A program made the position numbers and the translations under genes. Under the pieces are notes generated by a model that saw only the letters and a list, made by a program, of their open reading frames with translations, searched no databases and was not told the origin of the DNA. This document shows, in pieces, positions 24,293 through 48,467 of a stretch of DNA of 53,121 nt; the stretch's first letter is position 1; every line of letters begins with the position of its first letter. Source of the stretch: Halonatronum saccharophilum DSM 13868 (GTDB taxonomy: Bacteria > Bacillota > Halanaerobiia > Halobacteroidales > Halobacteroidaceae). Location of the stretch: the NCBI RefSeq assembly GCF_000517025.1, contig NZ_KI912091.1:255017-308137 (forward strand), given 5' to 3'.

Positions 24293-24299
24293 ATTAATG

Positions 24300-29384: not shown

Positions 29385-29407
29385 TTAAGAATTAAAAACA
29401 AAGTGAT

Positions 29408-29505: not shown

Positions 29506-29520
29506 AGGAGATGAGTAGAA

Positions 29521-30510
29521 ATGGTAAAGATGTATTATAATGAAGATGCTAATTTGGAAAATTTAGAAGGAAAGACTGTAGCGGTTATTGGTTATGGAAG
29601 TCAAGGGCATGCTCAAGCGCAGAATATGAGAGATTCTGGTATAAATGTTGTTGTTGCTGAATTAGAAGGTACTAAAAACTATGAACAAGCCAAAAATGAT
29701 GGTTTTGAGCCTAAAGATGCTGCAGAGGCAGCTAAGGAAGCAGATGTAATCCAGATATTACTTCCTGATGAGGTGCAAAAGGCTGTTTATTATAATGCTG
29801 TTGAGCCTAATTTAGAAGCAGGGAATGCTCTTGTATTCTCGCATGGTTTCAATATTCACTTTGGTCAGATTGTTCCTCCAGCTAATGTTGATGTTTATAT
29901 GGTTGCTCCTAAGGGACCAGGACATTTGGTAAGAAGAGTTTATACAGAAGGGTTTGGTGTTCCAGCATTAATTGCAATCTATCAAGATGCGACTGGAAAT
30001 GCTAAGGACTTAGCTTTGGCCCATGCTAAAGGTGTAGGTGGAACTAGAGCTGGTGTAATCGAAACTACTTTCAAAGAAGAAACAGAAACTGATTTATTTG
30101 GTGAGCAAGCTGTATTATGTGGTGGAACTTCTGAGCTTGTTAGAGCAGGATTTGAAACTCTAGTAGAGGCAGGTTATCAACCTGAGATTGCTTACTTTGA
30201 GTGTTTACATGAGCTTAAGCTTATTGTTGATCTTATGTATGAAGGTGGTATTGCTACTATGAGAGATTCTATCTCTGGTACTGCTGAATATGGAGACTTA
30301 ATTGCAGGTAAGCAAGTAATTAATGATAAGTCTCGTGAGGCTATGAAAGAGTTATTAACAAATATTCAAACTGGAGAGTTTGCTAAGCAATGGCTACTTG
30401 AGAACCAAGTTGGTCGTCCAGCTTACTTAAAGAGAAAAGAAATTGATGCTAACCACCAAATTGAAAAGGTTGGAGAAGTATTAAGAAGTAAGATGAATTA
30501 TTTAGACTAG
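29521..30510 (+). CDS. ilvC: Ketol-acid reductoisomerase (class I), possibly NADH-preferring
   Basis: It converts acetolactate or acetohydroxybutyrate to the dihydroxy acid, using Mg and a nicotinamide cofactor. The protein has 329 residues, a class I length. The Rossmann motif is GYGSQGH (24-30), and the catalytic C-terminal domain contains [14 protein letters not shown] and SGTAEYGD. The cofactor loop after strand beta-2 reads [15 protein letters not shown] (43-57). Where NADPH enzymes have LRxGSxSW, this one has Leu48, Glu47, Glu49, Thr51 and Asn53, losing the Arg and a Ser that bind the 2'-phosphate. NADH use is therefore plausible (inference). Confidence 0.96.
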
Positions 30511-30650
30511 GAATGAGTAATGAGTGATGAGTGATGAGTAATGAGTAATGAGCTATGAGTAATGAGCTAAAAGGTAGATCTAAAGTTCTTATTATTAGAT
30601 TTTGAAGTTAGCTCACGGCACATAGCTCACAGCTCATAGCTAACTATTTA
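30511..30650. repeat. ATGAGTA short tandem repeats with an inverted partner
   Basis: Between ilvC and leuA, a 7-base unit (ATGAGTA, with ATGAGTG and ATGAGCT variants) is repeated about eight times (30513-30570). The right part (30607-30645), TTAGCTCACGGCACATAGCT followed by CACAGCTCATAGC, is an imperfect reverse complement of it, so the whole can fold into a long imperfect hairpin. It has no coding potential and no spacer pattern of the CRISPR type. Confidence 0.65.
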
Positions 30651-30668
30651 ATTCGGAGGTGAATGAAG

Positions 30669-32174
30669 ATGGGAATTAAGATCTTTGATACTACTTTGCG
30701 TGATGGGGAGCAATCTCCTGGTGTGAGTTTGAGTGTCAAAGAGAAGTTGGAGATAGCCAAGCAATTGGCTAAGCTTAAGGTGGATGTGATTGAGGCTGGT
30801 TTTCCAATCGCTTCTCCAGGTGACTTTGAAGCGGTAAGAAGTATAGCTCAAGAGATAGAAGGTCCAGTAATTGCTGGGTTGGCTAGAGCTACCAAAAAGG
30901 ATATTGATAGGGCTTGGGAGGCATTAAAGGTTGCAACTAAGCCAAGGATTCACACCTTTATAGCTACTTCTGAGGTTCATATGAAGTATAAGTTAAAAGC
31001 TTCTCCAAAAGAGGTCTTAGATAGAGCAGTTAAAGCCGTTAAATGGGCTAAGAGTTATACAAATGATGTAGAGTTTTCTGCTGAAGATGCATTTAGAAGT
31101 GATAAGGATTTCTTATGCGAGATCTTTGAAGCGGTGATTGATGCTGGAGCAACTACGATTAATATTCCAGATACTGTTGGTTATGCTACTCCAGTAGAGT
31201 TTGGTGGACTTATAGGATATATAAAGAAAAATGTACCTAATATTGATAAAGCAGTAATCAGTGTTCATTGTCATAATGACCTAGGTTTGGCTGTAGCTAA
31301 CTCTCTTGCTGCTATTGAAAATGGTGCCCAACAGATTGAATGTGCCGTTAATGGAATAGGTGAGAGGGCTGGGAATACAGCTTTAGAAGAGGTTGCTTTG
31401 ACTCTTAACACCCGTTATGATTACTTTGATATAGATACGGATCTTAATTTAAAGGAAATTGCTAAGACTAGTCGTTTGGTTAGTCATTTGACTGGGATGG
31501 ATATTCAGCCTAATAAGGCGGTCGTTGGAAAGAATGCCTTTGCTCATGAGTCTGGAATTCATCAAGATGGAGTAATCAAAGAGAGAACTACTTATGAGAT
31601 AATGGATGCAACTACTATTGGATTAAAGGAGAATAAGATCGTTCTAGGAAAGCATTCAGGTCGTCATGCTTTTAAGGAGAAGTTAAAGGAGTTAGGTTAC
31701 CAGTTGGCCCAAGAAGAGTTAGATTCAGCTTTTAAACGCTTTAAAGAAGTAGCTGATAAGAAGAAGGAGATTAGTAGCTTTGATCTAGAGGCTATTATGG
31801 AAGATGAGATCAGTCAAGTTCCTGAGCTTTATCAGATTAAGTTACTTCAAGTAACAAGTAGTGCTGATATAGCAACAGCTACTATGCAGATGGTAGTAGA
31901 TGGAAAGGTAGTTAATGAGTCTGCTTGTTCAGAGGGTGGTCCTGTAGATGCTATCTATGATACTATGAATAGAATTACCGGTTTAGATTGTAAGTTGGTT
32001 AATTATAAGATTGATTCAGTGACTGAGGGTAAGGATGCTTTAGGAGAGGTAATAGTTAAACTAGAGCATAATGGAGAACTCTTTATTGGTCGAGGAATCA
32101 GTACTGATGTAATTGAAGCCAGTGCGAAGGCTTACAATAACGCAATAAATAAAATACTTGCTAGTGGGAATTAG
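30669..32174 (+). CDS. leuA: 2-isopropylmalate synthase
   Basis: LeuA condenses acetyl-CoA with 2-oxoisovalerate, the first step of the leucine branch. The protein has 501 residues. The TIM barrel starts [20 protein letters not shown] (metal Asp in TLRDGEQ), with the [16 protein letters not shown] metal-binding motif and GIGERAGN. The C-terminal regulatory domain (about 385-501), the site of leucine feedback in the family, is complete. The ATG at 30669 is preferred to the one two codons earlier because GGAGGT is then 8-9 bases upstream. Confidence 0.96.
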
Positions 32175-32245
32175 AATTAGTTGATAAATGAATAATTTTA
32201 TCTTTTAATGATTTAGGTTTTAACTATCAATTATCAATTCGCAAC
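32175..32245. repeat. Short inverted-repeat words upstream of leuC
   Basis: AATTAGTTGATAAATG on the left and AACTATCAATTATCAATT on the right are partly complementary and use the same words as the element after atpC. A shorter, weaker member of the same kind of element. Confidence 0.4.
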
Positions 32246-32267
32246 TATAAATGAGGAGGAAAATATT

Positions 32268-33527
32268 ATGGGAATGACTATGGTAGAAAAGATTTTAGCT
32301 GCTCATTCTGGTAAGGATAAGGTAAAGCCAGGTGAGTTGGTTAATGCTAAGTTGGATATGGTTTTAGGAAATGATGTTACAACTCCTGTAGCAGTTAAGG
32401 AGTTTGCTAAGATTGGTTTAGATAAGGTTTTTGATAAAGAAAGAGTTGCTATAGTTCCAGATCACTTTGCACCAAATAAGGATATAAATTCTGCAGAGCA
32501 ATGTAAGATGATCAGGGAATTTGCTCATGAAAAGGAGATAAAGAATTATTTTGAAATAGGAGATATGGGTATAGAACATTGTCTATTACCTGAAAAAGGT
32601 TTAGCATTACCGGGAGATATTATAATCGGTGCTGACTCTCATACTTGTACTTATGGTGCTTTAGGTGCTTTGGCAACTGGTGTTGGAAGTACAGACATGG
32701 CAGCAGGAATGGCAACTGGAGAAGCTTGGTTTAAGGTTCCAGAGACTATTAAGTTTGTTTATAATGGTGAGCTACAAAAGTGGGTTAGTGGTAAGGATCT
32801 AATCCTTTATACTATTGGAGATATCGGTGTAGATGGAGCTTTATACAAGTCTATGGAGTTTACAGGAGAGGTTATTGAGAATTTCTCTATGGATAATAGA
32901 TTTACTATGTCTAATATGGCTATCGAAGCTGGTGGAAAGTGTGGATTAATTGAGCCAGATCAGACTACTTTAGAGTATGTTAAAGATAGAGCTCAAAGAG
33001 AATATACAGTCTATAAGAGTGATGAGGATGCTGACTACTCTCAGGTTATTGAGTATGATGTAAGTAAGATAGAGCCTCAGGTTGCATTCCCACACTTGCC
33101 TGAAAATACAAAGGGAATAAGTGAGGTTGGAGATATTAAAATTGACCAATCTGTAATTGGTTCTTGTACCAATGGAAGAATAGAAGATCTTAGAGTAGCA
33201 GCAGAGGTATTAAAGGGTAAGAAGAGGGCACCTCATGTTAGGTTAATCATCTTCCCAGGTACTCAAGAGATTTATCGTCAAGCTATGCATGAAGGTTTAG
33301 TCGATATCTTCTTAGATGCAGGTGCAGCAGTTAGTACACCAACTTGTGGTCCTTGTTTAGGTGGACATATGGGTATTCTTGCTAAAGGAGAGAGAGCAAT
33401 TGCTACCACCAACCGTAACTTTGTTGGTAGAATGGGTCATCCAGAGAGTGAAGTTTATCTTTCTAACCCAGCAATAGCAGCAGCTTCAGCAGTAGCAGGT
33501 AAAATAGTCAGTCCTGAGGAGGTCTAG
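32268..33527 (+). CDS. leuC: 3-isopropylmalate dehydratase, large subunit
   Basis: With LeuD it isomerises 2- to 3-isopropylmalate through a 4Fe-4S cluster. The protein has 419 residues. The cluster ligands are visible: Cys300 in [11 protein letters not shown], and Cys360 and Cys363 in [14 protein letters not shown]. The active-site segment [14 protein letters not shown] is intact. This is the shorter archaeal or clostridial type of LeuC. The start follows GAGGAGGAA. It is separated from leuD by an unusual tandem repeat that begins at its stop codon. Confidence 0.96.
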
Positions 33528-33772
33528 AATTCTTCATGTCTTTTGATGAAGAATTCTGACCACGAAGGGTTCGCAGAACCCGTAGGGGCTAAGGCTCAAA
33601 TCAAAGATTAGAGTTGAAATTATTAATGTGAATTATCAGGATATCAAAGGAGATTTTAGAATTTTTCATGTCTTTTGATGAAGAATTCTGACCACGAAGG
33701 GTTGGCAGAACCCGTAGGGACTAAGGTTTAAATCAAAAACTAGAGTTAAAATTATTGTTATAAATTAGTGAA
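33526..33772. repeat. Two-copy 132-bp tandem repeat between leuC and leuD
   Basis: Copy 1 starts in the leuC stop codon (33526) and copy 2 at 33658. Each holds a hairpin of 12-bp arms (AGAATTCTTCAT/ATGAAGAATTCT, 8-base loop; perfect in copy 1), then CACGAAGGGTT with a second hairpin (GGGTTC-GCA-GAACCC in copy 1), and a tail like CAAATCAAAGATTAGAGTTG. The copies differ at scattered positions, so the duplication is not very recent. Neither hairpin has a T-tract. They could act as mRNA processing or stability elements between leuC and leuD. Confidence 0.8.
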
Positions 33773-33796
33773 ATAGTAGAGGGGGAAAGATCAAAT

Positions 33797-34294
33797 ATGG
33801 ATATAAAGGGTAAAGTATGGAAGTATGGTAGTGATGTTGATACAGATGTAATTATTCCAGCTCGTTATTTGAACACATCTGTTCCTAAGGAGTTAGCAAA
33901 GCATTGTATGGAGGATATAGATGAGAACTTTGTGGATAATGTAAATGATGGAGATTTAATTGTAGCAGAGGATAACTTTGGTTGTGGTAGTTCAAGAGAG
34001 CATGCGCCATTAGCTATTAAAGCCGCAGGTGTATCTTGTGTTATCGCTAATTCTTTTGCAAGGATCTTTTATCGTAACTCTATTAATATTGGGCTACCAA
34101 TTTTGGAGTGTCCAGAAGCTGTAGCAGGAATTGAGACTGGTGATGAGGTAGAGGTTGACGTTGATTCTGGAGTCATTAAGAATTTAACTAAGGGCCAAGA
34201 ATACCAAGCAGCAGCTTTCCCAGAGTTTATGCAAGAGTTAATAGATGCAGGCGGATTGGTTAATTACGTGAAGAAGAAGGTAGGAACGGCGTAA
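33797..34294 (+). CDS. leuD: 3-isopropylmalate dehydratase, small subunit
   Basis: LeuD is the swivelling partner of LeuC. The protein has 165 residues, the short form that pairs with the short LeuC type. Conserved parts are [40 protein letters not shown] and [20 protein letters not shown]. The ribosome site is an AGGGGGA 12 bases upstream. It follows the tandem repeat and precedes leuB. Confidence 0.96.
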
Positions 34295-34337
34295 GAGCAG
34301 TGTACACTATATCTTAATACAGAAGAGGTGGTTGATT

Positions 34338-35390
34338 ATGAAGAAGAAGATTGCAATTATTGGTGGAGATGGTATTGGCCCTGAGGTTACTAAGCAGGGA
34401 GTTAAGGTTTTAGAGAAATTAGATCATATCAGTGGTTTGAGCTTTGAATTTGAAGAGTTTTCTTTAGGGGCAGATCATTATCTAGAAACAGGAGAGCTTG
34501 TTACTGATGAAGTTAAGGCTGACTTGGCTGATTTTGATGCTATATATTTGGGAGCTGTAGGAGACCCTAGAGTAAAACCTGGTATTTTAGAACATGGTAT
34601 TCTTTTAGATCTACGTTTCTCCTTTGACCAGTATATTAATCTACGCCCAATTAAGTTATTGGATGAGAAGTATACTCCACTAAAGGGTAAAGGGCCAAAG
34701 GATATTGATATGGTAATCGTTCGTGAAAATACTGAAGGTCTATATTCTGGAGTAGGTGGATTCTTAAAGAAGGGTACTAAAGATGAAGTAGCAACTCAGG
34801 AGATGATTAACACTTATAAGGGTGTTGAGAGGGTTATCCGTTATGCTTATGAGTATGCACAAAAGAGAAATAAAGAGAATAAGCTAACTTTATGTGATAA
34901 GAGTAATGTACTTACTTATGCTCATGATCTATGGCAGAGAGTATTTAAAGAAGTAGGAAAAGACTTTAATAGTGTACAACAACATCATATGTTAGTCGAT
35001 GCTATTACTATGAAGATGGTAAGAAACCCTGAAATATTTGATGTAGTAGTTACTGGTAATATGTTTGGTGATATTATTACTGACTTGGGAGCTGAGATCC
35101 AAGGAGGAATGGGTATGGCAGTATCAGGAAATGTAAATCCTAATGGCGTATCTATGTTTGAGCCTGTACATGGTTCTGCTCCAGATATTGCGGGCCAAAA
35201 TAAGGCAAACCCATTGGCTGCTTTATTGGCTGCTTCTATGATGGTTGAGGTCTTAGGAAGCCCTAAGGAAGCTGCTAAGATAGATAAGGCCATTAATCTT
35301 TCTTTAGAGAAGGGCCAAACTACTGTCGATATGGGCGGTAAGTTAAGTACTGATGAAGTAGGAGATTATATCTGTAGTGTTTTAGGATAG
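34338..35390 (+). CDS. leuB: 3-isopropylmalate dehydrogenase
   Basis: LeuB oxidises and decarboxylates 3-isopropylmalate with NAD. The protein has 350 residues. IAIIGGDGIGPEVTKQG opens the chain; the substrate-phase motif RENTEGLYSGVGGF and the metal-binding signature (VTGNMFGDIITDLGAEIQGG followed by MGMA) are intact, as is EPVHGSAPDIAG. The sequence belongs to the group that also includes tartrate and isocitrate dehydrogenase-like enzymes, but the position among the leu genes decides the call. The ATG at 34338 is preferred over a TTG six bases earlier that overlaps the ribosome site AGAGGTGG. Confidence 0.94.
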   Translation: MKKKIAIIGGDGIGPEVTKQGVKVLEKLDHISGLSFEFEEFSLGADHYLETGELVTDEVKADLADFDAIYLGAVGDPRVKPGILEHGILLDLRFSFDQYINLRPIKLLDEKYTPLKGKGPKDIDMVIVRENTEGLYSGVGGFLKKGTKDEVATQEMINTYKGVERVIRYAYEYAQKRNKENKLTLCDKSNVLTYAHDLWQRVFKEVGKDFNSVQQHHMLVDAITMKMVRNPEIFDVVVTGNMFGDIITDLGAEIQGGMGMAVSGNVNPNGVSMFEPVHGSAPDIAGQNKANPLAALLAASMMVEVLGSPKEAAKIDKAINLSLEKGQTTVDMGGKLSTDEVGDYICSVLG

Positions 35391-35402
35391 GTGGTGAATT
35401 AA

Positions 35403-36965
35403 ATGCTAAAGGTTTATGATACTACCTTGCGTGATGGAAGCCAGCGGGAGGGTATCTCTTATTCAACTGAGGATAAATTAAATATTACTAAGAGATTAGA
35501 TGAATTGGGAATTCATTATATTGAAGGGGGCTGGCCTGGATCCAATCCCAAGGATATAGAGTACTTTCAAAGGGTAAAGGAGTTAGAGTTGAAGAAGGCT
35601 AAGGTTGCAGCCTTTGGTAGTACAAGAAGGGCCAATGTTTTACCCCAAGATGATAAGAACCTCCAAGCCATTCTAGAATCAGGGGTGGAGGTTGCTACAA
35701 TCTTTGGGAAGGCCTGGGATCTTCATGTAACTGATGCTATCAAAACTACTCTTGAGGAGAACTTAGCTATGATAGAGTCCTCAATCTCTTTTTTAAAGGA
35801 GAAGGGTTTAGAGGTTAACTTCGATGCTGAGCACTTCTTTGATGGTTACAACTCTAATCCTGACTATGCCTTAAAGGCTCTAAAAGCTGCTCAAAGAGGT
35901 AGAGCAGATGCTATAGTACTTTGTGATACCAATGGTGGAACTATGCCCTTTAAGGTAAAAGAGATAGTAGAGCGTGCCAAAGAAGAGGTAGATACTCCTT
36001 TAGGTATTCATGCTCATAATGATGGAGATGTAGCAGTAGCTAATTCTTTGGCTGCTTATGAAGGTGGAGTCCAGCATATACAAGGAACTATCAATGGTTA
36101 TGGTGAGAGGTGTGGAAATGCCAATCTATCATCAATAATCCCAAACCTTAAGCTTAAATATGGTGAGGATTTAATTAGTGATGAAGAGTTGGCTAAGTTG
36201 ACAGAGGTCTCTCGTTATGTAAGTGAGGTGGCCAATCTATTACCACCAAGCCATAATCCTTATGTAGGTGATAGTGCCTTTGCCCATAAGGGTGGTATTC
36301 ATGTTAGTGCTATCTTGAGAAATGCTAAGACTTATGAACACGTTGCCCCTGAGCTAGTAGGTAATAAACAGAGAGTCTTAGTATCTGAATTATCTGGTAA
36401 GAGTAACCTTGTCTATAAAGCGCAAGAGTTAGGTATAGATATAGATGAAGAGACGGCTGATTTGAGAAAAGTTTTAGATAAAATTAAGGAGCTAGAGCAT
36501 CAGGGTTATCAATTTGAAGGTGCAGAAGCCTCTTTTGAATTGATGGTGGAGAAGGCTCTAGGAAGCTATCAGAAGTTATTTGACCTAGATGGAGTTAGAA
36601 TAATAACTGAAAAGACTGACGAGATCAATCCTATATCTGAGGCTACTATCAAGGTCAGAGTTAAGGGTGAACGAGTTCATATAGCTGCCGAAGGCGATGG
36701 ACCTGTCAATGCCCTTGACTCAGCCTTGAGAAAAGCTTTGGTCGACTTTTACCCTCAATTAGAGAAGATCAAGCTTATAGATTATAAGGTAAGGGTCTTA
36801 GAAGGTAAAGATGGAACTGCCGCTAAGGTAAGGGTGCTTATCGAGTCCACCGATGGTCATAGTACCTGGGGAACTGTTGGCGCTTCTACCAATATAATCG
36901 AAGCCAGTTGGCAGGCTCTAGTGGATAGCATAGAGTATGGTATAAAGTTAAAAGATACGAATTAA
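35403..36965 (+). CDS. cimA: Citramalate synthase
   Basis: CimA condenses pyruvate and acetyl-CoA to (R)-citramalate, which LeuC, LeuD and LeuB turn into 2-oxobutyrate, allowing isoleucine synthesis without threonine dehydratase. The protein has 520 residues. It belongs to the LeuA superfamily ([50 protein letters not shown]). The segment [13 protein letters not shown] and overall pattern mark the CimA group (TIGR00977 type). A C-terminal regulatory domain is present. The gene starts 12 bases after leuB and shares its LeuCDB enzymes. It is the last gene of the operon. Confidence 0.92.
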
Positions 36966-37167: not shown

Positions 37168-37569
37168 TTAATCTTCAATATCATCTATAATTATCTTAAT
37201 GATGTACCATTTATCATTAAGATTTTTTAGTTCATAAGTAAATATAAATTCTTGTATTTCACGTGTTTTGCCTGGATCTTTTACATCATGAATTTGTTTT
37301 CCTGTAATTTTGATATGTTGATTAGGGATTAAAATTGAAATATCTTGATCTATATAGTCTATATTATACAATTCCAGCCCATTATCAAATTCATGTTCAA
37401 AGATTTTAATAAAATCATCTCTATTGTTTACAATTTCTTCATCTTTTTCTATACATCGAAAACCATCTTCCCATAATATAGTTTTCATACTAGTAAAATC
37501 AGCTGATTTTAATGCATTTAAAAATTCAGCAATCTTGATTTCAACAACATTATTTTTTTGGTCATTCAT
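37168..37569 (-). CDS. NTF2/SnoaL-like small protein
   Basis: The protein has 133 residues and no signal peptide. The pattern of an N-terminal helix (EIKIAEFLNALKSADFTSMK), a short helix after it (RDDFIKIFEHEF) and four strands, ending in ELKNLNDKWYIIKIIIDD, fits the cone-shaped NTF2-like fold of SnoaL and DUF4440 proteins. These include small enzymes and ligand-binding proteins, so no activity can be named. A GGAGGT ribosome site precedes the start on the minus strand. It is transcribed divergently from the NRPS gene and could be functionally linked to it, but no direct evidence supports that. Confidence 0.5.
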   Translation of the reverse strand: MNDQKNNVVEIKIAEFLNALKSADFTSMKTILWEDGFRCIEKDEEIVNNRDDFIKIFEHEFDNGLELYNIDYIDQDISILIPNQHIKITGKQIHDVKDPGKTREIQEFIFTYELKNLNDKWYIIKIIIDDIED

Positions 37570-37838
37570 AATATTACCTCCAATTATTAATTAATAGTAT
37601 AAGGCGGATTTAAATAGATAAAAAGTATAATTTAATATACTTAGGTATAGCATTCTACAATAAAGAATTATATTCCTGCATAAAAAATAAGATATATTTT
37701 TTATAATAAAAAGGAGGTATTTTATAGTAAAAATGAGAAATATATTACTGACGACAGTAAAAATATAACATACTTTAGTTATAACCGCTATATTTTATAA
37801 TTTAAATCAAAATAGCAACTATTAGGAGGGGTAGTAAA
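37570..37838. other. Divergent intergenic region upstream of the NRPS
   Basis: About 270 bp, very AT-rich. It holds a small stem TTACTG-ACGA-CAGTAA (37745-37760) and a ribosome-site-like AAGGAGG (37711-37717) that is not followed by a real gene; the nearest ATG (37733) opens only 11 codons. No clear sigma-A promoter was recognised for either gene. The true NRPS ribosome site is AGGAGGGG at about 37823-37830. Confidence 0.4.
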
Positions 37839-40800
37839 ATGGATCAAAGCGAGAGAATCTTAGATAATGAAAGGGATAGGTTGATTTATGAATTTAATAA
37901 TACTGCAACTTGCTTTCCAAAGAATAAAACTTTACAAGAAATCTTTGAAAAGCAGGTTTTTAAGCATCGAGATGAAATAGCTGTAAAATTAGAAGATCAA
38001 GAACTAACGTATTCTCAATTAAATGAAAGGGCCAACCAATTAGCTAGAAGTTTAAGGGAAAAAGGGGTAAAAGTAGGTCAAGTTGTAGGGTTGATGGTAG
38101 AGCGATCTTTAGATATGATGGTTGGAATTTGGGCAATTATAAAGTCAGGAGCAACTTATTTGCCAATAGAACCAAATTATCCAAGAGAGAGAATAGAGTA
38201 TATGTTAGAGGATAGTAAAGCTAAGGTGATATTAGGGCATATTAATTTAATAAATAAGCTAGAATATGGTGGGAAAATCATAGATATAACTGAAAAAAAC
38301 CTTTATAAGGGAGATAAAGCTAATTTAGAGAACTTAAATAGCCCTAATGATATTGTTTATATAATTTATACATCTGGGACTACAGGAAGACCTAAGGGTA
38401 TTTTGACTACGCATTATAATATCAGTAGAGTAGTTAAAAATACTAATTATATTAATATTAATTCTAACGATAGGATACTGCAATTATCTAATTATGCTTT
38501 TGATGGTTCTACTTTTGATATTTATGGGGCATTTTTAAATGGTGCTAAGCTAGTAATGATAACTCAGGATAAGTTATTAGAGGTAGATAAGTTAGCTAAA
38601 CTAATAAAGAGAGAAAAAATTACAATTTTCTTTGTAACAACAGCATTATTTAATATTTTAGCAGATAATCATTTAAAGCAATTAAAAGGTGTTAGGAAAA
38701 TATTATTTGGTGGCGAGAGAATATCTGTACCTCATGCTAGAAAAGCCTTAGATTATTTGGGTAAAGACAAATTAATCCATGTTTATGGGCCAACCGAAAC
38801 TACAGTTTATGCTACTTATTATTATATTAATGAAATTGATAAAGAAGCAGATAACATACCAATTGGAAGTCCTATAGCAAATACAGAGGTTTATATTTTA
38901 GATGAAAACAATAAATCACAACCAATTGGAGTACCAGGAGAGTTATGTATAGCAGGTGATGGTTTAGCTAAAGGATATTTAAATAGACCAGAAAAGACAG
39001 CTGAGGTTTTTGTTGATAATACTTTTTCTGAGGGGAAGATGTATCGTACAGGGGATTTAGTAAAGATGTTAGATGATGGAAATATAGAGTTTATAGGAAG
39101 AATAGATCATCAGGTTAAAATTCGGGGCTTTAGAATAGAGTTAGGTGAGATACAGAGTAAATTATTAGAATACTTTGCTATTAAAGAAGCCATAATTATA
39201 GCTAAAGGAGAAAAAGGAAGTGTAGATTATTTATGTGCATATATAACTGGGAATAGAGATCTTACAGTAGCGGAGTTAAGGAAATTTTTATCTAAAGATT
39301 TACCTGATTATATGGTTCCTTCTTATTTTATTCAGTTAGATAAGATGCCACTAACCCAAAATGGTAAAATAGATCGTAATAAGCTGCCAGAGCCTGATGG
39401 TACTTTAAATACAGGTGTAAAATATTTAGCTCCAGAGAGTGAAATAGAGAAAAAATTAATTAGAATCTGTGAAAGTATATTACGGGTAAAAAAAATAGGT
39501 ATGAATGATGACCTTCTTGCTTTAGGTGGAGATTCATTAAAATTAATCAGTCTTGCTAATAAAATTTATAAAGAAATGAGTATAAAGGTCTCTTTAAAAG
39601 AAATAATAGCAAGAACAAAGTTAAAAGAACTTGTTGAATATCTAGAAAATACTGAAATAAATAGTACTTTTGCAATTGATGATGTGGAGAAAAGAGACTA
39701 TTATCCACTATCTTCAGCCCAAGAGAGGATAATGTTAGAAACTGAGTTTGATCAGTCTAGTACAAGTTATAATGAGCCTTTTGGTATATTAATAGAAGGT
39801 AAAGTTGATATTAATAAATTAGAATTAATTTTTAAAAAATTGATTAAGAGGCATGAATCTTTAAGAACAGGTTTTGAGGTTATTAATGGAGAATTTGTTC
39901 AAAAGATTTATCAAGAAGTTCCTTTCGAGATTAAATATATGGAAAAAGCAGAAAGTGAGATTGATAATATTTTAGAAGAATTAGGAAAGGTCTTTGATTT
40001 AAGTAACCCCCCATTATTGAGAGTAAATTTGGTTAAGGTAGGAGAGGACAAGTATTACCTTTTAATTGTTTTACATCATATTATAATGGATGGTGCTTCT
40101 TTAGATATTATGGTAGAAGAGATGAAAAAATTATATGAAGGTGATGAGCTTCTTGCTTTAAATAAAACTTATAAAGATTATGCTGTATGGCAAAGAGAAC
40201 AGCTTTCTAATGCTGAAGTAATAGAAAAGCAAAAAAAATATTGGCTAGATGAGTTTAGTGGTCAGTTGCCTGTTCTTAATTTACCAACTGATTATTCAAG
40301 ACCAAAGTTTAAAAGTTATAATGGTGAAAATATTACCTTTTATCTTGATAAGGAGACAAGTGATAAGTTAAATCGATTGGTAAGTGATAATAACACAACT
40401 TTGTATATGGGATTATTTGCAGCATATAATACTTTGTTGCATAAATATACAGGTCAAGAGGATATTATAATAGGTTCTCCAATGTTTGGTAGACCTCATA
40501 TTGATTTAGAGAATATATTTGGTATGTTTGTAAATACTATTGCTTTAAGAAGTTATCCAGAGGGAGATAAGAGTTTTGAAGATTTTTTAAAGGAAGCAAA
40601 GGAGAAGGTATTACAAGCCTATGAAAACTTAGATTATCAGTTAGCAGATTTAGTTGATAATTTAGATATTAAAAGAGATACAAGTAGGCACCCACTCTTT
40701 GATGTAGCATTTGTATTACAGAATATAAATTTAGATAAGGTTAGATTTGGTGATTTAGAGGTTACACCTATTGACTTTAGGTATAATAATGCTAAAGCTG

Positions 40801-43800
40801 ATATTCTTTTAGAAGCGATAGAAACAGATAAGGGAATTAAATTTGATTTACAGTATTGTACTGATTTATTTAAGAAAGAGACTATAGAGAGATTTTCTAA
40901 GCATTTTATTAATATCATCAAAGAGGTTGTAGAGAAGCCAGAAATTAAGTTATCAGAGATTGAAATGATATCTAAAGATGAAGAGGAAGAACTATTAATT
41001 GAATTTAATGATACATCAGTAGAATATCCAAAGGAAAAAACGATTCATCAAATATTTGAGGAGCAAGTAGAGAAGAGGACAAATGATATAGCTATCATAT
41101 TTGAGGGTCAAGAATTAACATATGAAGAATTAAATCAAAAAGCTAACCAATTAGCGAGATTGTTAAGAAAGAGTGGAGTAAAGGCTGATGATTTGGTAGG
41201 AATAATGTTAGAAGAATCCTTAGAGATGATAATTAGTATTATTGCAGTTATCAAAGCAGGTGGAGCCTATGTACCAATTGATCCTAATTATCCTAGAGAT
41301 CGAATTGACTATATCTTAAAGGATAGTAAGATGGATATTTTATTGACAAGTAGCAATTTAATAAATGAAGTTGAATTTACTAAAAATAAGATTTGTGTAG
41401 ATGATAAAGACATATATCAAGGAGATAATAATAATCTTGAAAATATCAATAAACCAAGTGATTTAGCTTATATAATCTATACATCGGGAACTACAGGTAA
41501 ACCTAAAGGTGTAATGGTAGAACATAAAAATGTAGTTAGGTTATTATTTAATGAAAAATTCCAATTTGATTTTAATAGTAGTGATACTTGGACTATGTTT
41601 CATTCATACTGTTTTGACTTTTCAGTATGGGAGATGTATGGTGCCTTATTATATGGTGCTAAGTTGATTTTAATCCCTAAAACATTAGCAAGAAATACTA
41701 ATAAGTTTAGGAGATTATTGCAAGAATATCAGGTGACAGTTTTAAATCAGACTCCATCGGCTTTTTATAATTTAATTAGTGAAGAGTTAATTTGTGGAGA
41801 TGAGAGGTTGAATTTAAAATATATAATATTTGGAGGTGAAGCATTAAATCCATTTAAGTTAAAGGAATGGAAAGAGAAGTACCCAGAGACTAAACTTATC
41901 AATATGTATGGAATTACAGAAACAACAGTTCATGTTACCTTCAAAGAGATAACAATAAGGGAGATAGAATCAGGTGTAAGTAATATAGGAAAAGCAATTC
42001 CAACTTTAACTACTTATATTATGAATAGCAATATGAAGTTACAACCTGTAGGAGTACCAGGAGAATTATGTGTTGGTGGTGAGGGAGTAACAAGGGGTTA
42101 TTTAAATAGAGAAGAATTAACAGAGGATAAATTTGTAGTTAATCCATACAAGCCAGAAGAGAGGCTTTATAGATCAGGAGATTTAGCTAGATTATTGTCT
42201 AATGGTGATATGGAGTACCTTGGAAGAATAGATCATCAAGTTAAGATTAGGGGTTTTAGAATTGAATTAGGAGAGATAGAGTCAGCTTTATTAAAGCATC
42301 AAAAGGTTAAAGAAGTTGTAGTATTAGCTAAGGAATTTGCTTCTGGTGATAAGCGTTTAGTTTCTTATATTGTAACTAATAAAGAAAGTAAGTTGAATGT
42401 TAAAGAAATTCGTTCTTATTTATATAAGAAGATACCAGCTTATATGATTCCATCATATTTTATTCAATTAGATGAAATGCCTCTCAATCATAATGGTAAA
42501 GTTGATAGAAAATCATTACCAGAACCTAATTTAGAAGTAGATATAGGGGTAGAGTATGTTGGCCCTCGTACTGAATTAGAAAGTAAGTTAGTGGATATCT
42601 GGAAAAAAATATTGAAATCAGATAAAATAGGAATAAAAGATAACTTTTTAGATTTAGGCGGGAGTTCATTGTCGGTGATACAAATGATGCAGATGATTCA
42701 ATTAGAGTGTCAGGTATTAATTCCTATAGGGGAGATTTATTCTACACCAACAATTGAAGAGTTGGCAGATAAGATTGAACAGATAAAAGCAAAAGGTTTA
42801 GAAGAAGTAATGTCCGCTTTAGGTGAAGTTGCAGCTTATTCAGAGGAATCTTCAGATGATATTTTGATAGAAGAGTATAATTTAGCTGACTTTAGTCGAT
42901 TATCTGTCACTAGGCTTAAGCCAGAAAATATATTATTAGCAGGCTCTACAGGTTTTTTAGGTTCTCATATATTAAGGGATCTTATAATTGAAACTGATGC
43001 AACTATATATTGTTTATTAAGGGAAAATAATAATAATAATTGTGAACTTAGATTAAAGAAGCGACTAAATTTTTATTTTGGTGAGAAGCTAGATAAATAT
43101 TTAGGTAATAGAATTATTGGTGTTAAAGGAGATTTAACGGAAGATAATTTAGGAATTGAAGATAATCTATATCAAGAATTAGCAAATAAGGTTGATACAG
43201 TTATTAATTCTGCCGCAGATGTAAGACATTATGGAAAGTATGAACAGTTTGAAAATATTAATGTTTTTGGTACTCAAAGGTTAGTGGATTTTTGTTTAAC
43301 ATCTAAAGAGAAGACCTTTCACCATACCTCAACTATAAGTATTGTTGGTGAAGGGGGAAGAAAAGGGAAGTTTAAAGAAAGTGATTATAATATTGGGCAG
43401 AATTTTATGACCGATGTATATAGTAAAAGTAAATTTGAAGCAGAAAGGGTTGTTTATAAGGCTAGAATTAGAGGATTAAAAGCTTCAATTTATAGAATTG
43501 GTTTATTGGTTGGAAGACATCAAGATGGACATTTTCAAGAGAATATTGTTGAAAATAGATTTTATAATAATACTAAAGGTTTAATTTGTCTTAGTAAAGC
43601 ACCAAGTGCTTATATGGATTATAAAAGTGATTTTACAGCAGTAGATAAATGTAGTGAAGCTATGGTTAGCTTGATCTTATGGAAAGAGTCTATAGGATAT
43701 AACTTTCATATGATGAATGCTAATTTAATTCCAATGCGAAAGTTTATTGCTGGGATTAATAAAGCAGGCTATCTGATTGAAGAGGTAAGTAATCAAGAAT

Positions 43801-44039
43801 TTTATGATTTAATCTCTAATAGGATAAAGAATTTTGATTTTGAAAGAGAGTTAAGTACATTATTTAATGATTTAGCAGCTGGAGTTCATAATTTTATCGA
43901 AGAGAATACTCAAGAAAAGATGGATACAGAGTTTACGGTAAAAGCATTGGAGAGGGTAGGTTTTGTTTGGCCAGAAATTGATTTAGAATTTATAAAAAGG
44001 ATTTTGAAATATTGTAATGAGATAGGATATATTAATTAG
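37839..44039 (+). CDS. Dimodular nonribosomal peptide synthetase A-T-C-A-T-R, predicted Ile-Thr
   Basis: The protein has 2066 residues. Domains: A1 (about 28-515), carrier T1 (about 530-605, Ser566 in GGDSL), C (about 620-1045, HHIIMDG at 746-752), A2 (about 1070-1560), T2 (about 1575-1650, Ser1610 in GGSSL) and a terminal reductase R (about 1690-2066; GSTGFLG at 1702-1708, Tyr1861 and Lys1865). Specificity residues of A1 (222, 223, 226, 265, 289, 291, 315, 323, 324, 510) read DGFFLGVVYK, the classical Ile code. Those of A2 (1260, 1261, 1264, 1303, 1330, 1332, 1356, 1364, 1365, 1554) read DFWNIGMVHK, the classical Thr code. No epimerase or starter C domain is present. The release domain should give an Ile-Thr aldehyde, likely cyclising to a pyrazinone as with AusA (aureusimines). 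No phosphopantetheinyl transferase lies nearby. Confidence 0.93.
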   Translation: MDQSERILDNERDRLIYEFNNTATCFPKNKTLQEIFEKQVFKHRDEIAVKLEDQELTYSQLNERANQLARSLREKGVKVGQVVGLMVERSLDMMVGIWAIIKSGATYLPIEPNYPRERIEYMLEDSKAKVILGHINLINKLEYGGKIIDITEKNLYKGDKANLENLNSPNDIVYIIYTSGTTGRPKGILTTHYNISRVVKNTNYININSNDRILQLSNYAFDGSTFDIYGAFLNGAKLVMITQDKLLEVDKLAKLIKREKITIFFVTTALFNILADNHLKQLKGVRKILFGGERISVPHARKALDYLGKDKLIHVYGPTETTVYATYYYINEIDKEADNIPIGSPIANTEVYILDENNKSQPIGVPGELCIAGDGLAKGYLNRPEKTAEVFVDNTFSEGKMYRTGDLVKMLDDGNIEFIGRIDHQVKIRGFRIELGEIQSKLLEYFAIKEAIIIAKGEKGSVDYLCAYITGNRDLTVAELRKFLSKDLPDYMVPSYFIQLDKMPLTQNGKIDRNKLPEPDGTLNTGVKYLAPESEIEKKLIRICESILRVKKIGMNDDLLALGGDSLKLISLANKIYKEMSIKVSLKEIIARTKLKELVEYLENTEINSTFAIDDVEKRDYYPLSSAQERIMLETEFDQSSTSYNEPFGILIEGKVDINKLELIFKKLIKRHESLRTGFEVINGEFVQKIYQEVPFEIKYMEKAESEIDNILEELGKVFDLSNPPLLRVNLVKVGEDKYYLLIVLHHIIMDGASLDIMVEEMKKLYEGDELLALNKTYKDYAVWQREQLSNAEVIEKQKKYWLDEFSGQLPVLNLPTDYSRPKFKSYNGENITFYLDKETSDKLNRLVSDNNTTLYMGLFAAYNTLLHKYTGQEDIIIGSPMFGRPHIDLENIFGMFVNTIALRSYPEGDKSFEDFLKEAKEKVLQAYENLDYQLADLVDNLDIKRDTSRHPLFDVAFVLQNINLDKVRFGDLEVTPIDFRYNNAKADILLEAIETDKGIKFDLQYCTDLFKKETIERFSKHFINIIKEVVEKPEIKLSEIEMISKDEEEELLIEFNDTSVEYPKEKTIHQIFEEQVEKRTNDIAIIFEGQELTYEELNQKANQLARLLRKSGVKADDLVGIMLEESLEMIISIIAVIKAGGAYVPIDPNYPRDRIDYILKDSKMDILLTSSNLINEVEFTKNKICVDDKDIYQGDNNNLENINKPSDLAYIIYTSGTTGKPKGVMVEHKNVVRLLFNEKFQFDFNSSDTWTMFHSYCFDFSVWEMYGALLYGAKLILIPKTLARNTNKFRRLLQEYQVTVLNQTPSAFYNLISEELICGDERLNLKYIIFGGEALNPFKLKEWKEKYPETKLINMYGITETTVHVTFKEITIREIESGVSNIGKAIPTLTTYIMNSNMKLQPVGVPGELCVGGEGVTRGYLNREELTEDKFVVNPYKPEERLYRSGDLARLLSNGDMEYLGRIDHQVKIRGFRIELGEIESALLKHQKVKEVVVLAKEFASGDKRLVSYIVTNKESKLNVKEIRSYLYKKIPAYMIPSYFIQLDEMPLNHNGKVDRKSLPEPNLEVDIGVEYVGPRTELESKLVDIWKKILKSDKIGIKDNFLDLGGSSLSVIQMMQMIQLECQVLIPIGEIYSTPTIEELADKIEQIKAKGLEEVMSALGEVAAYSEESSDDILIEEYNLADFSRLSVTRLKPENILLAGSTGFLGSHILRDLIIETDATIYCLLRENNNNNCELRLKKRLNFYFGEKLDKYLGNRIIGVKGDLTEDNLGIEDNLYQELANKVDTVINSAADVRHYGKYEQFENINVFGTQRLVDFCLTSKEKTFHHTSTISIVGEGGRKGKFKESDYNIGQNFMTDVYSKSKFEAERVVYKARIRGLKASIYRIGLLVGRHQDGHFQENIVENRFYNNTKGLICLSKAPSAYMDYKSDFTAVDKCSEAMVSLILWKESIGYNFHMMNANLIPMRKFIAGINKAGYLIEEVSNQEFYDLISNRIKNFDFERELSTLFNDLAAGVHNFIEENTQEKMDTEFTVKALERVGFVWPEIDLEFIKRILKYCNEIGYIN

Positions 44040-44048
44040 ATAAAGATA

Positions 44049-44094
44049 ATAAAAGAGCCAATGTTGAGTTTAAACTCAACATTGGCTCTTTTAT
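44049..44094. terminator. 46-bp perfect palindrome after the NRPS
   Basis: Two 23-base arms (ATAAAAGAGCCAATGTTGAG followed by TTT, and its exact complement) with no spacer, and A/T runs at both ends. It lies between the NRPS gene and the convergent minus-strand gene and should end transcription from both sides. Confidence 0.88.
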
Positions 44095-44107: not shown

Positions 44108-44470
44108 TTATAAAGAATCAAGATAATCTTCTGCTTCAGCTTTGTTTGCAAAGATATTATTCTTTAAATCTTTAAGTGTTCTTTTTAGTTGCATCTTGGC
44201 AAGTGATGATTTAGACATAATTGTCCCTACGCCTTTAATACCTTTCTTTAACATAGCTTGTCTTCCTTCATTGAAGATAGCGTCTACTTCTTTAGAATGA
44301 ACAGGGTCAGATGATACATCCAGACAGACAGTAAAATTCGGTTTAGCCTTATTAATTATTGGTTTTAATTCTTCGAGATATTCCTTTGCTTCTGGAGTTT
44401 TTAAACTGTCTTTAAAAGTAATATAAATTCGATTTTTAACTCCATTGTACTTAATATCATAATTTTTCAT
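44108..44470 (-). CDS. Small STAS-like protein downstream of the chemoreceptor
   Basis: The protein has 120 residues, without signal peptide or membrane segment. The beta-alpha pattern NRIYITFKDSLKTPEAKEYL, then FTVCLDVSSDPVHSKEVDAI and KGVGTIMSKSSLAKMQLKR is reminiscent of STAS/SpoIIAA-like folds, where a helix follows the central strand. No anti-sigma-antagonist phosphorylation motif is certain. It lies 50 bases after the chemoreceptor on the same strand, so it is probably under the same riboswitch. The function is unknown. Confidence 0.45.
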   Translation of the reverse strand: MKNYDIKYNGVKNRIYITFKDSLKTPEAKEYLEELKPIINKAKPNFTVCLDVSSDPVHSKEVDAIFNEGRQAMLKKGIKGVGTIMSKSSLAKMQLKRTLKDLKNNIFANKAEAEDYLDSL

Positions 44471-44520: not shown

Positions 44521-45684
44521 TTAAGATTTAAACTTTTCTATTGATGTATATAAGTTTTCTAAAGTATCAGACATATAAGTTGTAGAATCTAAGACCTCAT
44601 CCATAATTAATTTAATTCCATCAGTCATATTAGCAATTTCATCGCTTCCTGCAGCTAGTTCTTCTGTGGCAGCTGCTGATTGCTGAATTTGAGAAGTATT
44701 ATCTTGAATTGCTTTTAGTATATTACTGAAATTGCTATCAAGCTGTTTAATAATGGACTCTCCTTTTAGTGCTTCATCTCTTCCATTATTAGTTGCCTTT
44801 AGAGCTTGGCTAGTTTCTAATTTTATATCATTAATTAGGTTAGTTATCTTGCCTGTTGCACCAGTAGTTTCTTCAGCTAATTGTCTGATTTCATCAGCTA
44901 CAACAGCAAATCCTCTTCCATGTTCTCCTGCTCTAGCAGCTTCAATTGCTGCATTTAATGCTAATAGGTTTGTTTGATTTGCTATATTAGTAATAAGGTC
45001 TGCAATTTGATTTATTTGAACAGTTTTTTGATTGAGTTGTTCCATATGTGTTGCTGAATTCTCTGCTACTAATTTAATGTTTTCTATCTGTTTAATAGCT
45101 GTTTCAATATCCTTTTTACCATCTTGAGCAACTTGATTTGTATGCTCAGAGAAAGCACTAACCTCTTGATTACTAGCAGAAATCTCTTCTATACCACTAG
45201 ATATATTGTGGATAGTATCAATAGTTTGGGCGATTATTGAATTTCCTTCAGTAGATGCTTCTTTTAATAATTGAGCTGTCTCTTCAATATCTTCTGTTTC
45301 TTGAATTACTTCATTTAGATTATCTTGTAGATTTAAGATTAGTTTATTAAATGTGATATTTAAGTTATTAATATCAGAATCTTCAATTTTTAATTCTGTT
45401 AATTTTTTATCTTCATCAATAAATGTTTTTATAGTTGCTTTTAAATTAGTTATTGGTTTTACTAAATCCTGAATAAACCAACAGATTATGGCTACTAATA
45501 TTAGGTGTGTTAAAATTACTACGGCTATTATTTGAATTATTGTTTTAGTTGTTATTTCTTCTATAAAATTAGTTGTTACTAATAAAAAAGCAATAGATAT
45601 CAGAAGTAGTATTAATAAGTTTATTTTAATAAAAGCTTTATTTTTTAAAATAAATTTAAAGTGATTTTTTAAAAAAATTTTCAA
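44521..45684 (-). CDS. Methyl-accepting chemotaxis protein without a sensor domain
   Basis: The protein has 387 residues. Two membrane helices (about 21-39 and 47-69) are separated by only a few residues, so there is no extracytoplasmic ligand domain. A HAMP-like linker ([14 protein letters not shown]) follows, then the signalling coiled coil with the conserved hairpin tip [20 protein letters not shown] followed by [20 protein letters not shown]. The start is TTG, 7 bases after GGAGGTG. A cyclic-di-GMP riboswitch with its terminator lies directly upstream. It may sense a membrane or cytoplasmic signal. Confidence 0.9.
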
Positions 45685-45716: not shown

Positions 45717-45762
45717 CCATTACTAAAAACCATAGTGTTGCCACTATGGTTTTTAGTAATGG
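45717..45762 (-). terminator. Expression-platform hairpin of the c-di-GMP riboswitch
   Basis: Twenty-one-base arms (CCATTACTAAAAACCATAGT, plus G, and its complement) with a four-base loop. Read on the minus strand, the inner part CCATAGTG/CACTATGG is followed by TTTTT, a terminator form, while the outer bases overlap the end of the aptamer. It could switch with aptamer folding. Confidence 0.8.
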
Positions 45763-45840
45763 CAACCTGGCAATCATAGATATTATATCTGTAGACCCAA
45801 TGGCTTTGCGTCCATACCTTTCGATATGTTTGCCTTTAAA
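45758..45840 (-). promoter_or_regulatory. Cyclic-di-GMP-I (GEMM) riboswitch
   Basis: On the minus strand the sequence contains AAAGGCAAAC, then GGACGCAAAGCC, then GGGTCTAC, and ends ATTGCCAGGTTGCC. These are the conserved blocks of the GEMM-I aptamer in the right order: the P1 strand, the GGACGCAAAGCC core and the tetraloop-receptor GCCAGGTTGCC. It lies upstream of the chemoreceptor and STAS-like genes and next to a terminator hairpin, so c-di-GMP should control their transcription. Confidence 0.92.
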
Positions 45841-46049
45841 TTTTTAATTGATTATTTTTAATGATATCGACTCGAATCGACATTTAGTTGTTGAAAAAAA
45901 GTAAGATGTAATAGGAAAATGTCGCCTATTATCTCTATTATAGCTATAATTTTTAAAAAAATCAAATAATAATATTAAAAATATATAGGTATTGTAGTTT
46001 TAGTTTGATAATCTAGAAATGTAGTTATATAATTTAAGGAGGTGGTAAA
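45841..46049. other. Intergenic region between the riboswitch and the decarboxylase remnant
   Basis: About 210 bases, AT-rich. Besides the possible minus-strand promoter it contains TCGACTCGAATCGACA, a short CG-containing symmetric motif, and TGTCGCC at about 45919. A good ribosome site (AAGGAGGTGG, about 46036-46045) precedes the broken gene that follows. Nothing else was recognised. Confidence 0.4.
45864..45886 (-). promoter_or_regulatory. Possible motility-type promoter for the riboswitch transcript
   Basis: On the minus strand GTCGATAT resembles the sigma-D (sigma-28) -10 element GCCGATAT. TAAA lies upstream but with 11 bases between, shorter than the usual 14-16. The implied start near 45857 is about 20 bases before the aptamer. 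Confidence 0.3.
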
Positions 46050-46784: not shown

Positions 46785-47708
46785 TTATTTACAGAATATA
46801 CTTTCATTCTGGATTGTTAAGTAGGTTATGAATTTATTGATTATATTTGGGTTTTCAATCTTCTTTTTATATATTAAATTAAGGTCTATTTCTAAGTTTT
46901 CTAGGTATTCTTCCTTTAAATTAAGTAGTTCAATCTCGCCTTGGTGAAGTTCTTTCTTTACTGCTGAATAACTTAAGAGTGATATACCCAGATTAGCTTC
47001 TACAGCAGATTTTATTGCAGTTATGCTCCCCATCTCTGCTTTAATATTCAAATCTCCAATCTTCAAATTATTATCTTCTAGAAATTCATTGAATTTACGT
47101 CTTATATTAAAATCATCATTAAGGAGTATTAGAGGTAGTCTTTTTAATTTGGATATAGATATTTCTTTCTGATAATTTTTGTAACTAGAGGTTATAAAGC
47201 ATAAGCTATCAGTCATAATCTTCTTACTTGTCAAATCAAGTCCTTTTGGTATACTATCTTCGATAAATCCAATATCCACTTCTCCTTTAGAGACCTTATC
47301 TGTTATATTTTGACTATTATCAACTTTCAAATCAATGTTTACCTTGGGGTGTTTATCCTTAAAGGTCCAAATAGCACAAGGGATTAAGTAATCACCAGGG
47401 GTTATACTTGCTCCTATTTTCAGACTGAGATCTTTGAGGTTAAGAGAGTTATCGATCTCTAATTCTAGTTCACTATGGAGGTTTAGTATCTTTTTTGCGT
47501 ATTGGTAGACGATTTCTCCTCTTGAAGTTAGTTTAACCCCTTGGTTACTTCTTTGAAATAGTTTGGTACCATAGTAATCTTCCATAGATTGAATATGTTT
47601 ACTGATAGCTGGCTGGCTTAAGTATAATAGTTTAGCAGCCTTAGAGAAGCTCTTAACTCTAGTTACAGTAATAAAGACTTCAAATTGATATATCTTAATG
47701 TGAATCAT
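46785..47708 (-). CDS. LysR-family transcriptional regulator
   Basis: The protein has 307 residues. The N-terminal winged helix-turn-helix (YQFEVFITVTRVKSFSKAAK followed by LLYLSQPAISKHIQSMEDYY) is typical. The C-terminal periplasmic-binding-like effector domain spans residues about 90-295. It is transcribed away from the sulfur-transport genes with 153 bases between starts, so by the usual LysR arrangement it probably regulates them. That region contains short AT-rich symmetric stretches but no certain LysR box was defined. The downstream end abuts the decarboxylase remnant. Confidence 0.92.
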   Translation of the reverse strand: MIHIKIYQFEVFITVTRVKSFSKAAKLLYLSQPAISKHIQSMEDYYGTKLFQRSNQGVKLTSRGEIVYQYAKKILNLHSELELEIDNSLNLKDLSLKIGASITPGDYLIPCAIWTFKDKHPKVNIDLKVDNSQNITDKVSKGEVDIGFIEDSIPKGLDLTSKKIMTDSLCFITSSYKNYQKEISISKLKRLPLILLNDDFNIRRKFNEFLEDNNLKIGDLNIKAEMGSITAIKSAVEANLGISLLSYSAVKKELHQGEIELLNLKEEYLENLEIDLNLIYKKKIENPNIINKFITYLTIQNESIFCK

Positions 47709-47861
47709 CTCCTTTGCTTGTAGAGGTGTTTTAAGTATGATAAAATATAATCAACTTCTTTGCTTTTATAGACTTATTATTTACCTGTTGTCTCTATTAA
47801 ATCAGAGGAATTTTATTTTTGCAAGGATTTAATCTTAAAATATTAGAAAGAAGGGGTCTAG

Positions 47862-48467
47862 ATGAAAAGTTTCGGTATTGATTCTTGGGATAAAGGGCTA
47901 CTTCTTTTATGTATTATGGCTTTATTTATATTTATTTTTAATACAGAGATTAGTATAGTGTTATTATTAGGGTTAGCAGTTGGGTTTGTTATACAAAGGA
48001 GTAACTTCTGTTTCTCTAATGGGATAATGAACTTCTTTTTATTTAAGGATACTAAATTGATAAAAGCAATAATAATTCTAATCGGGATATCTACGTTAGG
48101 CTTTAGTATTTATCAATATAGTCTAGCATCGGGTTTAAGTGAAAGTTCTTTAAATATATCTCCTTTTGGGTTATATACGGTTATCGGTGGTTTAATATTT
48201 GGAATTGGAATGGCTTTGGCTGGTGGATGTGCTAGTGGGATATTAGTAAGAATAGGTGAAGGTTCTAGTGTATTTATTATAGCTTTAATAGGTTTAATTA
48301 TAGGTAGTAATTTAGGTTTTCAGCATTTGAGTTGGTGGCAAGAAAGATTTGGTAGAGAGGCTGCTTTCTTTCCTATTAGTTTTGGTTGGATTGGAGCTAT
48401 GGTAATACAATTTTCTATATTATTTATAGCTTATTATATTTTAAATGACTTAGATAAGCAACAGTAG
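47862..48467 (+). CDS. YeeE/YedE-family sulfur-compound transporter, first part
   Basis: The protein has 201 residues with about five membrane segments. FVIQRSNFCFSNGIMNFFLF and GIGMALAGGCASGILVRIGE carry the conserved Cys-containing motifs of the YeeE/YedE (DUF395) family; YeeE imports thiosulfate. The length is about half of the full transporter, and a second YeeE/YedE gene lies 260 bases downstream, so the two may form one transporter. The GTCTAGATG start follows GAAGGGG. Divergent from the LysR gene. Confidence 0.88.
   Translation: MKSFGIDSWDKGLLLLCIMALFIFIFNTEISIVLLLGLAVGFVIQRSNFCFSNGIMNFFLFKDTKLIKAIIILIGISTLGFSIYQYSLASGLSESSLNISPFGLYTVIGGLIFGIGMALAGGCASGILVRIGEGSSVFIIALIGLIIGSNLGFQHLSWWQERFGREAAFFPISFGWIGAMVIQFSILFIAYYILNDLDKQQ

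Follow-up and report, generated by a model that had tools for sequence, protein, structure and literature searches.

What is made by a two-module nonribosomal peptide synthetase (NRPS) in an anaerobic halophile, and do the genes beside it take part? The NRPS gene in question occupies positions 37839-44039 (plus strand) of a 53,121-nucleotide stretch of the genome of Halonatronum saccharophilum DSM 13868, here called the window, to which bare positions refer. Its product of 2066 amino acids is an intact two-module synthetase with complete motifs, arranged A1-T1-C-A2-T2-R (A, adenylation; T, carrier; C, condensation; R, terminal thioester reductase). Probably, the enzyme releases an isoleucyl-threonine aldehyde (Ile-Thr-aldehyde) that closes to a dihydropyrazinone. 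The host order is anaerobic and halophilic, as a preliminary description of this DNA had noted.

The gene is a single open frame with an ATG start and a AGGAGGGG ribosome-binding sequence a few bases 5' of it. There is no N-terminal C domain, and the protein starts directly before A1. Pfam recognizes two AMP-binding, two AMP-binding_C and two PP-binding domains, one Condensation domain (residues 619-1053) and one NAD_binding_4 domain (residues 1700-1942), with E-values as low as 1e-189; their order bears out the A-T-C-A-T-R architecture first proposed. A1 (37929-39383) and A2 (41034-42518), which lie on the plus strand as the other domains do, each contain one A3 core in a motif scan (YTSGTTGRPKG and YTSGTTGKPKG). 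The carrier serine motif is LGGDSLK at residue 562 in T1 (39429-39638; motif and domain search) and LGGSSLS at residue 1606 in T2 (42585-42770; Pfam and motif). The C domain (39693-40997; Pfam and tree), presumably of the LCL type and without an epimerase domain, has its catalytic motif HHIIMDG at residue 746. In the R domain (42819-44036; Pfam NAD_binding_4) the elements GSTGFLG, T and YxxxK are represented by GSTGFLG at residue 1702, HTSTIS at residue 1829 and YSKSK at residue 1861. All of the catalytic residues earlier described as intact (both carrier serines, HHxxxDG, and the reductase GxTGxxG and YxxxK) were found.

The two specificity codes, recomputed from an alignment of A domains, came out exactly as originally read: DGFFLGVVYK (Ile) for A1 and DFWNIGMVHK (Thr) for A2. 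The first is the code given for the bacitracin Ile domain (PMC2866473); the second is identical to that of DhbF2, with Thr as its predicted substrate (PMC4169593). In the alignment the nearest relatives of A2 (52-59% identity) bear the same Thr code, and those of A1 bear near-identical aliphatic codes. The protein thus has the features of a dipeptide-aldehyde/pyrazinone NRPS: A-T-C-A-T-R on one polypeptide with intact catalytic motifs, two α-amino-acid codes, and a free N-terminus at module 1. An aldehyde or a pyrazinone can reasonably be predicted as its product. A search of the open-access literature turned up no pyrazinone/dipeptide-aldehyde synthetase from Halanaerobiales and no Ile-Thr product, in keeping with the earlier remark that no described Ile-Thr product of this class was known. 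The enzyme would appear to work like the known synthetases, on a substrate pair for which no described product was found.

Conservation was examined in 13 genomes of the order, including that of the window (G000, 2.88 Mb), and in a wider set of 398 genomes of the phylum. The NRPS is present in 2 of the 13, G000 and G011, which belong to the same family and to different genera. The G011 ortholog is 78% identical end to end (residues 3-2065) with both codes unchanged; by domain the identities are 80.5% (A1), 76% (C), 77.8% (A2) and 81.9% (R). For the neighboring ilv, leu and cimA genes of the same two genomes, identity ranges from 80% (cimA) to 89%. The NRPS is therefore conserved nearly like housekeeping genes, which points to purifying selection on the whole enzyme, and domain identities of 76-82% with unchanged codes in a second genus rule out a chance or decayed gene. 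An N-terminal C domain, truncated to ~240 amino acids, is still present in the G011 ortholog and absent from the window gene. No remnant of it was found in the 269-bp intergenic region 5' of the window NRPS; a 22-residue candidate (E 0.003) was rejected because it lies within the beginning of the window protein. Beyond G011, no close relative was found in the 398 phylum genomes, where R-ending proteins are 32-39% identical. A genome-contig collection, scans of which may omit records very near the window's genome, gave no close relative in a single-protein scan; an R-domain alignment scan of it recovered two C-A-T-R proteins from gut/rumen metagenome-assembled genomes (31-34% identical).

Synthesis would begin with 4'-phosphopantetheinylation of the carrier domains by an Sfp-type phosphopantetheinyl transferase (PPTase). 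Such an enzyme, on which the preliminary description had made its prediction depend, is encoded at L039:8036-8719 (227 amino acids; Pfam AASDHPPT_N and ACPS). Each of the order's genomes encodes one protein of AcpS length, and a second, Sfp-type PPTase (228-230 amino acid frame) occurs only in G000, G011, G012 and G002. It adjoins the NRPS genes in G011 and is unlinked to them, on another contig, in G000. The G000 and G011 enzymes are 47% identical and the G000 enzyme is nearer to that of G002 (63%), so that it was probably not inherited together with the NRPS genes. The same genome has a second NRPS-like locus (L038:10289-16866; G000:C6). It encodes a 985-residue A-T protein with a weak BtrH_N-like C-terminal domain, a 387-residue stand-alone paralog of that domain, a 353-residue protein and a major facilitator superfamily exporter.

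Judging by the codes, A1 would load L-Ile and A2 L-Thr; the C domain would join them as Ile-Thr on T2, from which the R domain would, by precedent, reductively release Ile-Thr-aldehyde. The free amine would then close onto the aldehyde to give a cyclic imine, a dihydropyrazinone of composition C10H18N2O2. In AusA-type enzymes release by the R domain likewise gives an aldehyde, then a cyclic imine, which is oxidized to the pyrazinone (PMC10979478, PMC12153313). Two fates of the imine can be envisaged here. Oxidation would give 3-sec-butyl-6-(1-hydroxyethyl)pyrazin-2(1H)-one (C10H16N2O2), a step that is awkward in an anaerobe. The alternative, absent from the preliminary description, is speculative: the Thr hydroxyl could be lost as water with no oxidant, giving 3-sec-butyl-6-ethylpyrazin-2(1H)-one (C10H16N2O). 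With C6-H alpha to the imine and the side-chain hydroxyl beta to it, elimination of water and tautomerization would yield the aromatic 6-ethyl pyrazinone with the redox state unchanged. Such a redox-neutral dehydration would suit an anaerobe, and, equally speculatively, an acid-base catalyst of the NTF2-like type would fit the chemistry.

A protein of this kind is encoded next to the NRPS, in divergent orientation (37168-37569, minus strand, 133 amino acids), and is the best candidate for a catalyst of cyclization and/or dehydration. It matches PF13474 with 34.7 bits (cut-off 22, E 2.6e-8), and its AlphaFold2 model was assigned the NTF2 fold by Foldseek with E-values down to 5e-7, which places it among the NTF2-like/SnoaL proteins. 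Foldseek matches include a putative ketosteroid isomerase, a putative dehydratase, LinA and the phenazine protein PhzB2. The 133-residue protein resembles PhzB, ketosteroid isomerase and LinA in predicted fold but shares only ~8-19% identity with them; its catalytic residues are putative, and it is a candidate cyclase, dehydratase or isomerase. The gene accompanies the NRPS in both carriers and occurs in none of the 11 non-carriers of the order. No credible relative was detected in the phylum sample; a match in G328 (E 7.6e-4) was rejected, as it sits in an unrelated ABC-transporter reading frame.

Several points weigh against an Ile-Thr-aldehyde that cyclizes. The code predictions leave room for Val or Leu at A1 and Ser at A2, and R domains can reduce twice, to an alcohol. 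The PPTase could mainly serve the A-T protein of the second NRPS-like locus. The NTF2-like model was built from two sequences, with a mean pLDDT (predicted local distance difference test) score of 75 and one good model out of five, and the NTF2 fold is functionally very diverse. Finally, the locus is known from two genomes only.

The second half of the question concerns the neighbors. The NRPS had been described as standing alone; it belongs instead to a four-gene block kept in two genera. In both G000 and G011 the order is the divergent SnoaL-like gene, the NRPS gene, and then genes for a STAS-like protein and a chemoreceptor (methyl-accepting chemotaxis protein, MCP) that converge on the NRPS. 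The 269-bp region between the divergent genes (37570-37838) holds the NRPS ribosome-binding site; comparison of G000 and G011 revealed no clear conserved operator in it. The STAS-like protein (44108-44470, minus strand, 120 amino acids) has no match in Pfam. The best Foldseek matches of its AlphaFold2 model, which has a STAS/SpoIIAA fold, are RsbV, SpoIIAA and DUF3478; the protein is thereby placed among STAS anti-sigma-factor antagonists. The copy in the G011 block is 77% identical. The MCP (44521-45684, minus strand, 387 amino acids) has an MCPsignal domain (PF00015) and, by hydropathy, two adjacent membrane helices and no extracytoplasmic sensor domain. Each genome has many ordinary MCPs, but this N-terminal type is found only in G000 and G011 of the 13.

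Upstream of the MCP and STAS genes, and on the same strand, lies a cyclic di-GMP (c-di-GMP)-I riboswitch aptamer (45758-45844, minus strand; RF01051, 77.6 bits against a gathering threshold of 35), which ends 73 bp before the MCP start. In the G011 block the corresponding position also carries one (80.8 bits). No second c-di-GMP-I riboswitch was found in the window genome; up to ten occur in others of the order. A perfect 20-bp inverted repeat (44049-44094; reported on the minus strand by the scan) separates the NRPS gene from the STAS gene that converges on it. This hairpin is likely to be a terminator and, given the symmetry of the repeat, possibly acts on both strands. With the hairpin and a riboswitch of its own, the MCP-STAS unit probably forms a transcript separate from that of the NRPS, and it is for this unit alone that homology indicates c-di-GMP control.

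In both genomes the block is found on one and the same side of cimA, with its orientation relative to that gene unchanged; it is directly adjacent in the window and a few genes off in G011. The branched-chain amino acid genes of the window, ilvBNC-leuACDB-cimA (27166-36965, plus strand), are a source of Ile but an upstream neighbor that is not claimed as part of the pathway; in G011 this operon lies a few genes from the block. A T-box leader precedes it at 26422-26698 (plus strand), as it does in G011. The outer flanks of the block differ between G000 and G011, with order and orientation of the four genes kept. In G012, a congener of G011, the whole block is missing: the CdaA and FAH-like genes on either side are separated by ~95 bp. 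The CdaA/FAH-like junction (L060:5134-5230, L035:6797-18501) is a variable insertion site in the family: it is empty in G012 and holds the NRPS block in G011, an MCP and a binding protein in G006, and a sodium symporter-like gene in G010.

These observations bear on the strongest alternative, that the MCP, STAS and SnoaL-like genes are unrelated to the NRPS and merely share a variable spot inherited from a common ancestor. This is a substantial possibility, though we consider it less probable than not. The MCP-STAS pair converges on the NRPS as a unit of its own, set off from it by a terminator and preceded by its own riboswitch, the CdaA/FAH-like spot carries other inserts in G006 and G010, and the common position relative to cimA means that shared ancestry explains part of the synteny. 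STAS-like paralogs also occur without an NRPS in G011 and G012, where they adjoin other genes; the idea that the STAS-like protein always accompanies an MCP was rejected on this ground. Yet the four genes have kept their order and orientation in two genera despite changed outer flanks, the congener G012 lacks all of them together, and the SnoaL-like gene and the MCP type are absent from the rest of the order's 13 genomes. Any functional links within the block are suggested by gene context only.

A signaling role for the product, raised in the preliminary description, is conceivable, and the only new hint of it is the neighboring riboswitch and MCP genes; a link between the NRPS product and the chemoreceptor is speculative. 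The most elaborate version, in which the NTF2-like protein carries out the dehydration and the neighboring sensor-less chemoreceptor, its level set by c-di-GMP, detects the 3-sec-butyl-6-ethylpyrazinone so formed as an extracellular signal, is a long shot. No reports of SnoaL proteins with pyrazinones, or of a c-di-GMP riboswitch and MCP with an NRPS, were found in the literature.

Two further features of the window lie away from the block. One is an outer-membrane assembly cluster at 14008-25499 (a TamB-like protein of 1422 amino acids, a BamA-like protein of 558 amino acids, and Skp/OmpH-like and LpxD-like proteins), which is expected in a diderm Firmicute. The other, at 46785-48467, is a LysR regulator gene, just under the cut-off of a selenium-metabolism-associated model, divergent from a gene for a YedE/YeeE-type sulfur or selenium transporter.

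Other alternatives concern the form of the product. Ile-Thr-aldehyde itself, linear or hydrated, could be the active compound and inhibit proteases, a role suggested for dipeptide aldehydes of gut clostridia. Anaerobic conditions disfavor oxidation to the pyrazinone, and inhibition of proteases by the aldehyde form of phevalin is reported for anaerobic gut species in work cited by PMC12153313. However, the block contains no protease, inhibitor-resistance or export gene and has instead a c-di-GMP-regulated chemoreceptor and a STAS protein, and we regard this role as rather unlikely. Less likely again is that the R domain carries out a four-electron reduction and frees Ile-threoninol, a linear dipeptide alcohol, in the manner of myxochelin- or peptaibol-type release. 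The C-A-T-R half does match the MxcG model along its whole length, though far below the cut-off, and the solved R domains most similar to that of the window enzyme include one from MxaA. Yet aldehydes and pyrazinones are the products associated with the most similar architecture, A-T-C-A-T-R with a free N-terminal amine, and that amine can trap the aldehyde intramolecularly before a second reduction. That the gene is a non-functional relic of a larger synthetase, as the N-terminal C fragment kept in G011 and the low G+C content (29.7%) might suggest, is very improbable in view of the intact motifs, the uniform identity over the large domains between genera, and the consistent start and ribosome-binding site.

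Synthetases for pyrazinones and dipeptide aldehydes have been described in staphylococci, gut anaerobes and myxobacteria. If cyclization of Ile-Thr-aldehyde is the correct reading, the locus would be a small and complete system, with one synthetase, one candidate finishing enzyme and one PPTase, in which to study how rings of this kind close in the absence of O2 and whether they have a part in motility or c-di-GMP circuits. New relative to the preliminary description is the conserved gene block, which includes the NTF2-like protein and a chemoreceptor controlled by a c-di-GMP riboswitch. The function of natural pyrazinones is still called elusive (PMC12153313).

Among known systems, the autoinducers DPO (3,5-dimethylpyrazin-2-ol) and AI-3 resemble the predicted product in being small, Thr-derived pyrazine-type rings; any shared receptor would be conjectural. 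Their biosynthesis runs through threonine dehydrogenase and aminoacetone and involves no NRPS. Synthetases of the clostridial type, C-A-T-C-A-T-R and C-A-T-R (G027, G144, G117, G190, L083, L084), share with the window enzyme a terminal R domain (at most 40% identical) and reductive release, and a PPTase is adjacent in G027, G144 and G117. They differ in their codes and in the branches of their C domains (G027/G144 and the C-A-T-R proteins); G027, G144 and G117 have an added N-terminal C domain. The G027/G144 codes are DAMFSGLI(L/I)K and DVLTNGGIGK. C-A-T-C-A-T-R synthetases with an adjacent PPTase, an AusAB-like arrangement, lie at L102:3469-12116, L103:4155-12775 and L101:2760-11230 in other Bacillota-like genomes.

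The comparison with AusA, the aureusimine/phevalin synthetase of Staphylococcus, holds for architecture and, on the tests made here, not for descent. Both are one-protein A-T-C-A-T-R enzymes with a free amino terminus and reductive release, and both have a branched aliphatic residue in the product (predicted in the present case). The AusA model has ~350-390 extra N-terminal positions unmatched in the window NRPS; the N-terminal C fragment that the G011 ortholog has in addition is comparable. Unlike AusA, A2 of the window NRPS is specific for Thr by its code rather than Tyr, Phe or Leu, the SnoaL/STAS/MCP genes are added, and the PPTase is on another contig, not adjacent as is ausB. Against the AusA equivalog model NF047350 the protein scores 1564 bits, below the cut-off of 2500. 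Among solved structures its R domain, only distantly related to that of AusA (4f6c, 93 bits), is closest to the T-R didomain 6vtj (177 bits), followed by MxaA (136 bits). The first of these is presumably from the archaeal Methanobrevibacter, and the rest of its synthetase and its product are, as far as defined, different. None of the 398 phylum genomes has a member above the AusA cut-off, and AusA itself is for that reason not in the trees. In these quick trees, built without AusA's C domain, the window C domain groups with families f28, f84 and f126 (synthetases of lipopeptide-type carriers with large genomes), a branch that we infer, partly from codes, to consist of Bacillus/Paenibacillus-like NRPSs. 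It lies apart from the C-A-T-R proteins and G027/G144, and the C and R domains do not fall in one clade with the latter pair; in the R-domain tree the branches are long and the deep placement is uncertain. The AusA-model score, the ranking of the R domain and the placement of the C domain suggest that the same architecture may have arisen more than once.

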